DNA from: Panopea generosa
Taxonomy: Eukaryota; Mollusca; Bivalvia; Adapedonta; Hiatellidae
Assembly (NCBI GenBank): GCA_029582155.1
Contig: CM055908.1
Location: forward strand, 19,631,406 to 19,695,405
Length of the DNA: 64,000 bases
Direction: 5' to 3'
Part shown: one piece after another, positions 18,712-58,892 of the stretch
Layout of the letters: each line of letters opens with the position of its first letter
Numbering within the stretch: the first letter of the stretch is position 1
Notes under the pieces: model-generated
What the model was told of the DNA's origin: nothing
The model's database searches: none
The model's input: the letters and a program-made list of their open reading frames with translations, nothing else
Translations under genes and position numbers: made by a program

Positions 18712-19006
18712 TTATTGACCTCTATCAGTGCGTTTATACTCTCGTCCTCTTGCCCTGCGTCCGTTGTATCGTCTACGGTTAAGTGGAGGTATTAACGTCT
18801 GTTGCCTATTAGGTTGCGGAATTTTGACGGTGGTCGTTTGAACAATTATTATATTAGTATTTGGTGGTTTCTCGGAAACTGGATTTTCGGTAGAATATGT
18901 CTCGGTGGTCGTCTGCTTAGGTGCTTTTGTGGTACTAGAGACTACCTCATTTGAAACATCTGGAATATCATCTCTTGCAGCCATGCCACATTGCCAACAT
19001 TCGACT
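18712..19006 (-). CDS. Gene A exon 3 (terminal exon)
   Basis: The acceptor is 'tttcatttcag' and the exon opens with one base that completes a Ser codon, then VECWQCG. It has two Cys in a C-W-Q-C arrangement and no others. The linker is rich in Thr, Ser, Pro and Asn, suitable for O-glycosylation. The last 40 residues are strongly Arg-rich. It ends in TAA at 18712-18714. An open frame continues upstream of the acceptor only by chance. Confidence 0.8.
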
Positions 19007-56200: not shown

Positions 56201-58892
56201 CAATCTGTTAGATCATGCGTAGGCAAATTTGTACTTTTTCATATTGATAACAAATAAAAATGTATAAACTAGCTCTATAAGTGGCGAATCTAGAATTTTA
56301 TATTTCATGGAATGGGTAGGGGCAAATTCGGACCATTGAATTTTTAGCCGATATGGATCCATAAATGTATCCATCTCACTAGACTCAGTGTTGTTATTAT
56401 TTTTACTCTTTCTCAATCACTGTTACATAAAATACAATATTTAGGCATATGCATAGGGCATGAGGGTTGTCGTATAATCTTCACCCCTTATGAACAGATC
56501 AGATTTGATATAACAGAGTCTACTATTTTAAGACTTTGCTTTAGTTTTTTTATCAGATATAATACCCAATGTAATAAACGTAGATAATTAGAAAGTATAT
56601 GTTAATACAATATAAAGGTGTTAATTGATACATTACAATATGATAAACTAGCAGAAGCATGTAAGCATCATCTGACCCAGTCTCTGATTCACCTACATGA
56701 GTAATGCCCTTAAACATTTTTCACGTGCTACACATATACAATCCTCAGTACAAACTAGATTATTGGCTTTACATTGGTACCAGCTTTAGATACCAACCTC
56801 TTCCTATTGCTTGTAAATAATGCTTCCAAAACAGTGATTGGGAGTTAACTAAGTGATGCTTTAAGCTTTTTGACAATGGTGACATATTTTGTTCCGCAGT
56901 CTCTTTTGACAGAGTAATCGGTATCTGGCGTCAACAGCAGCACATTCAAGGTTATTGGGCAAATACAAGGCACAGACGCACTTCTTACATGAACTGAAGC
57001 ACCCTTCAGACAATGTTCAGATTAACCTAACTGCGACAGTTCTTCTCGGTGGACGTCATAGGACTTTCATAGATTAAGAGCTACTCTCTTGCTTATTTAA
57101 ACTAAAGAACTAATGAATCCAGTGATACATTGAACTTCAGGTAACACAGAGCAGATGGATTGGCCAAAGCCTTCTACAACATCATGAGTAGGAATGGGGC
57201 TAACTTCAGCTTCATATGAACGTCTGCTTCCACAGTATCGGACTTGAGGTATTCTACATTTTGTTGCTAGGACAGTGGCTGTATCCAAAACACTCTTGAA
57301 CCCACAACCTGGAGAAAACTGCTTTCTTAGCAGGCAGTTTTCAGGTCCACTTTACACCACCTGTAATAAACTTAAAACTGGCTTTCTTAAAGATCCATCT
57401 GTGTGTGCAAAAGAGAATGGAACAGTTGATAGTTCATAGGTCAGAACGTCTTAAGAAATGCTTCTCTGAAAGTGGATGCAATTATCAATCTACCAACCGG
57501 TTCTCTATCGACACTTATGGTTGTAATCTGCTCATCTTTAGATTTGACAGACTACTTACTGTTCTCATAGAATGAAAACTGTTTCCAATTTCACACGTGG
57601 CAGTGGCTCCTAAAAAACATTTGTATTTGTGTTCATTCTTTCATCAATAAACTGTTCCATGTTGTATCTTCCAATTGTATCACTGGTCACAAGATGTTTA
57701 AACATATCTGACAGCACAACAACTCCAGTTGTTTTATTGACTTATATGTATCATATCCGTCTGTTTTGCCGCCTGAGAAGAAATTTGTCATCATCCCTGA
57801 TATTAGCTTTCGAATATATTCTTCATCATTTTTCCAGCTTATATTTGTGACTTGACGTTTCACTTTCCAACATTTTGTAGCTGAAGATTTGGATACTCTT
57901 TCGTGGCTGGTCAGAAACCATCTTTCTTAAGCTCCTGGTCGTTTGGTTAGTCCAATGATTCTAACAATTTTCTTAGGATCTGGATTCACTGACAGGTTCA
58001 GAGCAATGTCTGTCGAAACTGGATTTAACGGGTGATTTAATCGACAAACAGTGTGGTTTCTTTTGCATACTCTTCAAGATCTATCTCATTCTACATCTAC
58101 ATCTATACCTTAAAGTGTCATACAGTGACAATGACTCGTATATATCAACGTATGCCAGAGCTTCAATAAACCCAGCATACATATAAATATCTTATTTTTG
58201 ATTATTCTAGAAAATGGCCATTTATTCCTATTTTTAACCCAAATGTGTCACACAGTGGCAATAACTCGGTAGAAATTGACTTGTCAAGCATATATGTATA
58301 TATATCAATGTATTAAATATATCTAAATCTTAAATATTCCAGAAAATGGCGATTTTTTTCGAATTTTCCTATTTTTAACCCAAAATTCCCATACAGTGTA
58401 AGTGACTCAGTAGACAATGACTTGTAATGCATATATGTATATATATCAATGTATTGCAAAGCTTTTATAAACCCAGTATACATAAAAATGTATTATTTTT
58501 CATTATTCCAGAAAATGGCGATTTTTTCGATTTTTTTCATATTTTTAACCCAAAATATCTTGAAAGTGATACACAGTTCTTTAGTACTGAAGTCAAGATA
58601 AAGATCTATATGTATCTACCAAACGTTTCCAAGTGACAAACCTTTTTTTATTAGTTTGCTCTTAGACTAATAGAATTAAACGACGTACGTTCTTCCGACA
58701 TACACTATGCAGCATAATTTTAATACCATTGTTAACCAAAATGTTATAACTTCATTGTTTCCTTTCATCATAATTACTAGTTCCCGTCAGCTTATCAAGC
58801 TTTACTCTTTAAGAATAAAATGCATATATCTCACCTAAAATGTGAAGTGACATAAACACAACTAAAATACATGGTAATGTCCTTAGTCCCAT
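52915..58892 (-). CDS. Gene B: paralogue of gene A, secreted CWxCG precursor (3 exons)
   Basis: Joined from exons 58835-58892, 54733-54853 and 52915-53227 (58 + 121 + 313 nt), giving 163 residues and a stop. Exon 1 encodes a signal peptide, MGLRTLPCILVVFMSLHIL. Exon 2 encodes a Leu-rich segment (LLGRLLADVVENKLLLEVV) ending RSLSKR. Exon 3 begins S-SCWSCG, then a Thr/Pro-rich linker with two N-glycosylation sequons (NVT, NKT), and ends in clusters KHKKRKK and ERRQQRWRFLTVLMDKLKKAIKF-type basic text. Borders are TTTTAG|GTGAGA...TCCTAG|CGTAC and GATC|GTAAGT...TTCAG|ATCC. Intron phases 1 and 2, exon 1 length, the SKR|S junction and C-W-x-C-G all match gene A. Family unknown to me; processing after Lys-Arg is inferred. 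Confidence 0.8.
53296..53460. mobile_element. MITE, second copy of the 55061 family
   Basis: It starts 'tagtctat' and 'agaacctgatatctcccgaa', shares 'tgacgtcatt' and 'tgaccaatca' with 55061-55280, and ends 'cgttctacagac'. It lies in intron 2 of gene B, 70 bases upstream of exon 3. It is shorter than the other copy, and no clear target duplication is seen. Confidence 0.7.
53461..54732. other. Gene B intron 2, remainder
   Basis: Intronic. No repeat family is identified. The open frame at 54333-54578 (minus) has no feature supporting it. Confidence 0.5.
54733..54853 (-). CDS. Gene B exon 2
   Basis: 121 nt, phase 1 in and phase 2 out, 39 whole codons starting Y-S-G-H-K-S and ending SLSKR. A longer open frame in another phase (54703-54930) reads through the same bases but does not fit either neighbouring exon. 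Compared with gene A, the segment carries 14 more codons between the LLG helix and SKR. Confidence 0.8.
55061..55280. mobile_element. MULE-like MITE with 10-bp TSD
   Basis: 220 bp flanked by a perfect 10-base direct repeat ACTGCTTCCC (55051-55060 and 55281-55290). Ends TAGTCTATCCCAGAACC and the complement TAGTCTGTAGAACGGACC form imperfect inverted repeats that continue into a shared CTGATATCTCC/CTGATCTCC. A 9-11 base TSD suggests Mutator-like transposition. Non-coding. It lies in intron 1 of gene B. Confidence 0.8.
56020..56345. repeat. Diverged tandem duplication of about 215 bp
   Basis: The segment with 'attacaaataaaatgtact', 'agtggcggatctaaaatttt' and 'atttcatggaatgggt' near 56022-56115 recurs near 56242-56330 in changed form. 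It has no coding capacity and lies in intron 1 of gene B. Confidence 0.7.
56346..56900. other. Gene B intron 1, unassigned part
   Basis: Nothing is supported here. Confidence 0.4.
56900..58075 (-). pseudogene. Relic of a multicopy 'DTDV...HAFTGCDT'-type gene
   Basis: The minus strand, read in shifting frames, gives in order: 'NPDPKKIVRIIGLTKRPGA' with 'ERWFLTSHERVS' (about 57900-58030), 'MEQFIDERMNTNTNVF' (about 57615-57660), 'REPVGRLIIASTFREAF' (about 57450-57505), and 'DTATVLATKCRIPQVRYCG' with 'IPTHDVVEGFGQSICSVLP' and 'CITGF' (57100-57288). These recall an uncharacterised, highly repeated gene family of aquatic invertebrates and fish, with conserved DTDVxVLA and ALPxxHAFTGCDT motifs. Many frameshifts and stops, and loss of the GCDT end, show a dead copy. 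Its function is unknown to me. It lies in intron 1 of gene B. Confidence 0.6.
58100..58580. repeat. Three diverged tandem copies, about 130-170 bp
   Basis: Repeated words 'agaaaatggcgatttttt', 'cctatttttaacccaaa' and 'atatgtatatatatcaatgt' recur with the 'agaaaatggc' word at about 58211, 58343 and 58510. It ends about 255 bases before exon 1 of gene B (intron side). Confidence 0.75.
58835..58892 (-). CDS. Gene B exon 1 (signal peptide)
   Basis: 58 nt from ATG to donor TTTTAG|GTGAGA, the same length and phase as exon 1 of gene A. It encodes a basic N-end and a long hydrophobic core. The donor is weaker than that of gene A at position +6. Confidence 0.75.

Follow-up and report, generated by a model that had tools for sequence, protein, structure and literature searches.

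Two paralogous genes for predicted secreted precursors of unrecognised family in the bivalve Panopea generosa

We analysed a window of 64,000 nucleotides from the bivalve Panopea generosa (positions 19631406-19695405 of contig C15, GenBank CM055908.1, in a genome of 1.474 Gb and 39 contigs), which holds two minus-strand genes, here called A and B. In all likelihood both are real genes, paralogs of each other, that code for secreted precursors. Each is made of a short signal-peptide exon, a propeptide exon that ends on a dibasic site, and a third exon in which a CWxCG motif is followed by a Thr-rich linker and a basic tail. Judged from the sequence, there is good support for both the paralogy and the exon models. 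The best explanation overall, which we hold tentatively, is that of a duplicated, small, probably lineage-restricted family of fast-diverging secreted proproteins, cationic and mucin-like.

Results

Gene models

The three-exon models of Table 1 go back to an earlier note on this DNA: rereading the sequence and rebuilding the coding sequences confirmed its coordinates, frames, phases and splice dinucleotides. The rebuilt products have 143 (A) and 163 (B) amino acids, and the frames are open throughout. The details on which the note had based its comparison are also there: the signal-peptide exon is 58 nt long and ends in phase 1 in both genes; exon 2 ends alike in both, with TCAAAAAGATC|GTAAGT, and its GATC|GTAAGT donor is in phase 2; intron 2 splits the Ser codon of the SKR|S junction; and CWxCG stands near the start of both third exons. 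The acceptor of exon 2 was chosen among two candidates in A and three in B, counting those at most 400 nt from the exon 2 donor that keep the frame open in the right phase: with the chosen ones exon 2 is longest, and it is these two that align.

On the minus strand of the window, TCAAAAAGATCGTAAGT is found once in each gene and nowhere else; in the window together with 200 kb flanks, the matches of a degenerate form of it, and those of CWxCG written as a DNA pattern, are confined to A and B. The note had also pointed to a nearby AATAAA. The two hexamers are real, at the distances given in Table 1, but as an argument they carry little weight, because the minus strand of the window has 52 copies of AATAAA.

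Table 1. Features of genes A and B, with the part of gene A that has a decayed copy elsewhere (positions in the window)
Feature	Position	Strand	Description
Gene A exon 1	26227..26284	-	58 nt; start codon and hydrophobic signal-peptide segment (MASKRSLCIQIVLMLFLSE); donor GTGAGT, phase 1
Gene A exon 2	21878..21956	-	79 nt; propeptide VYGKHHPLLGYLINDLKEEKRLLSKR(S); acceptor TTTATTGTAG; donor GATC|GTAAGT, phase 2
Gene A exon 3	18712..19006	-	295 nt to stop; VECWQCG..., Thr-rich linker, Arg-rich tail
Gene B exon 1	58835..58892	-	58 nt; start codon and signal-peptide segment (MGLRTLPCILVVFMSLHIL); donor GTGAGA, phase 1
Gene B exon 2	54733..54853	-	121 nt; propeptide AYSGHKSLLGRLLADVVENKLLLEVVLLDGTSKPRSLSKR(S); donor GATC|GTAAGT, phase 2
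Gene B exon 3	52915..53227	-	313 nt to stop; SCWSCG..., Thr-rich linker with two N-glycosylation sequons (NVT, NKT), predicted-helical basic tail
AATAAA, gene A	18641..18646	-	65 nt past stop; weak evidence
AATAAA, gene B	52818..52823	-	91 nt past stop; weak evidence
Gene A exon 2 and flanking intron	19388..22348	-	decayed copy at C15:14185104-14187492, two blocks, 81-83% identical

Paralogy of A and B

The two products, encoded 27 kb apart, are about 30% identical. The local alignment of the whole proteins scores 148, against 30.4 +/- 5.2 for shuffled sequences, and no shuffle in 2000 reaches that value: the likeness of the two copies is thus beyond chance, as had been argued. Exon 2 and exon 3, taken alone, each give the same count (0 of 2000). 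For exon 1 the score is reached by 206 of 2000 shuffles, so the signal peptides alone are no proof of kinship.

The match of the third exons is specific to the frames of the models, where it scores 103; in none of the 35 other pairings of frame and strand does it exceed 50. When all open frames of at least 50 amino acids in the window, outside tandem repeats, are compared with one another (135 frames, 8,512 pairs), the exon 3 pair comes second. The pair in first place, with a score of 117, is a plain DNA repeat, 87% identical over 158 nt; this repeat is dispersed, lying at 46115-46327 and at 52449-52652, the second copy just downstream of gene B. Among the 10 rows of matches listed by blastn between the two gene regions, at E up to 1, a single one touches an exon, over 24 nt at the end of exon 2, and the likeness of A and B is therefore carried by the protein. 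Of the 45 identical residues, 18 are written with a different codon.

Conservation is uneven along the precursors: the proportion of nonsynonymous differences (pN) is 0.345 in exon 2 and 0.504 in exon 3. The residues shared in exon 2 are Y, H, LLG, L, D, E, K and LSKR. Gene B carries in this exon an extra segment of 14 residues that A lacks, which is a weak point of the earlier argument.

Features of the predicted products

By hydropathy, exon 1 has the hydrophobic core expected of a signal segment, with a best 9-residue value of 2.87 in A and 2.99 in B. No later hydrophobic stretch is found in A (best 19-residue mean -0.01), and a moderate one lies in exon 2 of B (1.23). The propeptides, of 26-40 residues, are basic, with an isoelectric point (pI) of 9.7-9.8. 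They end at LSKR|S, a predicted cleavage site that is invariant in A and B and kept in a decayed exon 2 described below. Counted from the Ser of SKR|S, the mature parts are cationic, with 98 residues and a pI of 9.8 in A, 104 residues and a pI of 10.4 in B. After the signal peptide, each product has two cysteines, near the start of the mature part.

The note's claim of a basic tail in both products holds for the charge; the tails do not, however, align convincingly. An AlphaFold run on exon 3 of B, using an alignment of two rows, has a mean predicted local distance difference test (pLDDT) of 57.6 and a predicted template modelling score (pTM) of 0.24. It places a helix at residues 77-101 and neither helix nor strand before residue 77; pLDDT is below 50 over most of residues 8-55, as expected for a disordered linker. 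Neither the tails nor the propeptides are more amphipathic than shuffled sequences. By eye, neither A nor B has repeated peptides next to dibasic sites, nor is there an amidation signal shared by both: a Gly before two basic residues is seen only in NGRR, within the Arg-rich tail of A. From such features we infer that the products may be secreted, cleaved, glycosylated and engaged in binding.

Library searches

The earlier statement that the family is unrecognised stands for Pfam (above its cut-off), NCBIfam, the PDB and the protein database that we searched. In Pfam, A and B have sub-threshold matches only, with E values of 0.18 and 0.075, and one minus-strand reading frame each of 10630-23986 and 51954-64000 gives no useful match. 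NCBIfam yields no match, nor does Rfam a useful one over the window. The PDB has none by sequence with A, and one with the profile built from A and B, whose E of 1.8 is meaningless. In the protein database, at E of at most 10, no match appears with A (9 candidates), with B (60) or with the profile (637). The literature, including full-text searches with motif strings, holds nothing relevant on the family among the matches listed.

A decayed partial copy of gene A

A genome search with the A protein returns A itself, exon 3 of B, two matches on C2 (E 2.9) and an extra exon 2 at C15:14186988-14187092 (E 1.8e-6); with B it returns B, exon 3 of A and one match at E 8.8. The C2 matches (L019 and L020) lack CWxCG in the alignment, and the match at E 8.8 (L013, on C3) has two stops in it. 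A local search of the 200 kb flanks of the window gives no convincing further copy.

The extra exon 2 belongs to a copy of gene A, 5.4 Mb away from it, that comprises exon 2 and intron sequence only. Its exon 2 differs from that of A in 7 of 79 bases, has an in-frame TAG at codon 2 and is followed by the donor GTTAGT. In 12.1 kb around the copy, the likeness stops short of exons 1 and 3 of A, apart from a 55-nt intron match, and a genome-wide DNA search with exon 3 of A (18600-19100) finds A itself only. The stop codon, the altered donor and the missing flanking exons make this a decayed partial duplicate.

The alignment with the copy breaks at a stretch of intron 2 of A, about 20032-20590, that the copy lacks. 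By eye, this stretch has the ends TGTAACACC...GGTGCTACA (TGT...ACA), with CACT on both sides: it looks like a solo long terminal repeat inserted after the copy was made. A trinucleotide (TAG/ACT) array occupies 22112-22342 of the window, about 155 nt upstream of exon 2 of A; at the corresponding place in the copy the array exceeds 1 kb, by eye.

A probable third member

Since a search with whole proteins is blind to distant short exons in 1.47 Gb, motif patterns were used as well. Two genome patterns that join an acceptor to CWxCG have 13 and 12 matches, and their controls 19 and 5: with 25 matches against 24, the count itself means nothing. We translated 22 regions, which hold all 23 matches apart from A and B, and judged 21 of them by eye not to be family members. 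L054, open over 105 residues without reaching a stop in the sequence retrieved, and L055, open over 58, have neither a Thr-rich linker nor a basic tail.

The remaining region, L047 on C1, reads TTGATTGTTTCAG|A, then LCWQCGLSSKIVDTVAKEKTTTLDDVFNSIPAADNNTSTQNKTSNNKNSNKKKDKKEKKQKNKNN and a stop; it has a CWQCG start, LSSK, a linker rich in Thr and Asn, and a tail rich in Lys. This tail and those of A and B are alike in charge but not in sequence. Immediately after CWxCG, the three share a run of one hydrophobic, two small and one basic residue: MAAR in A, ISSR in B and LSSK in L047. A genome pattern for CWxCG followed by hydrophobic, two Ser/Ala-like and Lys/Arg-like codons has 17 matches, against 5 in the control; read by hand, only A, B and L047 spell [LIMV][SA][SA] and a codon compatible with K or R.

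Motif included, the alignments of L047 with A and B are significant (2 and 0 of 5000 shuffles reach the score); motif excluded, they are not (1311 and 949 of 5000). As the likeness is not significant without the motif, membership of L047 rests on the motif, the acceptor, the open frame and the composition. When the four residues that follow the motif are drawn at random, they match A and B as closely as those of L047 do in 177 of 200,000 cases, or about 0.02 once corrected for the 22 regions examined; 18 of these regions entered the test, the other four hitting a stop at most four residues after the motif. On this evidence L047 is a probable exon 3 of a third member, on another chromosome.

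In 1,800 bases upstream of L047, no exon 2 is recognised. A looser genome pattern, TCNAARMGNTCGTRAG (SKRS|GTRAG), has 13 matches, against 24 in controls, and none on C1: the L047 gene is therefore without an exon 2 that ends exactly so. Ten places found with this pattern had not been seen before, and the three that were read are not second exons. The stricter pattern LSKRS|GTRAGT, built from A and B and recovering both by construction, has three matches, as does its reversed control; the third, L044 on C6, is a chance match, where a TGA directly precedes the matched codons.

The search for further copies beyond the window, which the earlier note had proposed, thus gave one decayed partial copy on C15 and one probable further exon 3 on C1: the family probably extends a little beyond the pair.

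Repeats around the genes

Between A and B lies a satellite of 18.4 kb (26772-45124), with about 190 copies of a 97-bp unit and 87% matches. Two minisatellites, at 2657-10623 and 47164-51953, have 39-bp units, or 13 codons, and contain open stretches of 653 and 814 residues on the plus strand; along the whole array, each of the six frames of both has at least 24 stops. Intron 1 of gene B contains a dispersed repeat, 58000-58646, where nearly all of the 66 genome matches of query 58000-58892, itself included, fall. By eye, the stretches 53300-53450 and 55060-55300, which precede exon 3 and exon 2 of B, are similar, with TGACGTCA-like and 'GGGAGATATCAGGTTCT' sequence; a repeat search at 25 nt does not list them as a family.

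Discussion

Our preferred explanation takes the products to be cationic mucin-like proproteins. Exon 1 would be the signal peptide and exon 2 a basic propeptide; a cut of the furin or prohormone-convertase type at LSKR|S would free the mature part. Its N-terminal CWxCG could form one short disulphide, or supply a cysteine pair for dimer formation, the Thr-rich linker would be flexible and probably O-glycosylated, and the tail polycationic. The result would be an extracellular, mucin-like glycoprotein with affinity for anionic surfaces or glycans, such as those of mucus, extracellular matrix, microbes or gametes. The CWxCG motif and the exon 2 module would be held under constraint while the remainder of the protein drifts and diverges quickly. 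Assigning a role from this layout is guesswork, and doubtful.

Two known families bear a partial likeness to these products. The best sub-threshold match of B is New_glue (Pfam PF21827), a family of small secreted mucin-like proteins, and the likeness consists of the Thr-rich stretch, residues 79-136 of B; at 13.2 bits, it is far below the gathering cut-off of 31, and is probably compositional. The Ly6/uPAR/Quiver proteins, with their CYxC start, recall A and B in that two cysteines with CxxC spacing and an aromatic residue between them come directly after the mature N-terminus; they have a three-finger pattern of eight to ten cysteines, while the mature parts of A and B have two cysteines only, no three-finger set and no Pfam match.

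With the Nei-Gojobori method (NG86), the two genes have over 141 codons a dN of 0.71 and a dS of 1.20; the ratio of about 0.6, estimated from one pair aligned as proteins, marks A and B as constrained, loosely. Several observations weigh against our explanation, beginning with the smallness of that sample. Identity at third codon positions (0.47) is about that at first positions (0.48), so the codon pattern gives no clear sign of purifying selection, and constraint looks loose. The basic tails of A and B are not alignable; the helix predicted for the tail of B comes from a two-sequence alignment and a model with the scores reported above; and the amphipathic moment of this tail does not exceed that of shuffled sequences, 577 of 2000 of which reach it. 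Finally, no relative turned up in any protein collection tried, a result that holds only for what was searched.

Seen more broadly, the sequences are compatible with an undescribed proprotein family, signalling or surface-active, that counts three or more members, spread over two chromosomes: a module in exon 2, Y-x-x-H-x-x-LLG-x-L-x-x-D...LSKR, a phase-2 intron and an exon 3 module, S-CWxCG-[LIM]-[SA]-[SA]-[RK], would be retained, and the Thr-rich and polycationic parts would evolve freely. We regard this as a serious possibility.

The better conservation of exon 2 (see the pN values above), with the residues that A and B share there, keeps alive a reading of the pair as peptide-hormone or neuropeptide precursors, unlikely though it is. 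The active product would be the exon 2 peptide (Y-x-x-H-x-x-LLG-x-L...), cut out by signal peptidase and at KR, and exon 3 a spacer. Mollusc precursors of this kind resemble A and B in their signal peptide, the short peptide before a KR site and the small size; they differ in that, in A and B, the cleavage site is followed by a long stretch, basic and rich in Thr, which, with 98-104 residues and cysteines, would be a strange spacer. Also in favour of this reading, a scallop study that looked for such precursors used a signal peptide, dibasic sites, a C-terminal Gly and cysteines as criteria (PMC5996578). The exon 2 peptides, however, end in SKR and the only candidate amidation signal is the NGRR in the tail of A; there are no repeated peptides; and the peptide of B is longer by 14 residues. 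No known neuropeptide precursor family matches above the Pfam cut-off or in the protein database.

Improbable, too, is a role in reproduction, as fast-evolving acrosomal, seminal or egg-coat proteins whose cationic tail would bind glycans of egg or sperm. Strong divergence, to 30% identity between genes 27 kb apart, would fit, and basic tails with a Thr-rich linker are a layout known from gamete and gland proteins, but the overall dN/dS is below 1.

Host defence has still less to recommend it. The order of signal, propeptide, KR site and net positive mature part would suit a cationic antimicrobial peptide masked by its propeptide, and the basic helix predicted in the tail of B also favours defence. 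But antimicrobial propeptides are usually acidic, and those of A and B are basic; and the tail of B is no more amphipathic than shuffled sequences. With that moment, two cysteines and a helix model at a mean pLDDT of 57.6, A and B have neither a marked amphipathic helix nor a stabilised Cys-rich fold. Big defensins and mytimycins likewise have a signal, a propeptide, a basic site, a cationic product and several copies; A and B differ from them in not being cysteine-rich, in their basic propeptide and in having no family match in the libraries searched.

That one or both copies are pseudogenes or artefacts of the gene models that keep an old homology is very improbable: the family does shed dead copies, as the decayed copy of A, with its TAG, GTTAGT donor and no exon 3 found, attests, and identity at third codon positions is not depressed, but at about 30% identity both genes keep three open exons, consensus intron sites and equal phases, which is unexpected of old dead copies.

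Genes A and B belong to an orphan family of predicted secreted proteins, ordinary in kind, that none of the libraries tried recognises. Annotation readily overlooks orphan secreted genes this small, as their tiny exons lie scattered over thousands of bases; two independent copies whose frames agree yield a clean gene model that can be tested, and the family can be sought in other species by its two motifs, LSKR|S and CWxCG. Should the exon 2 peptide or the mature protein prove active, the pair would represent a new secreted factor; otherwise, it would be one more orphan secreted family.

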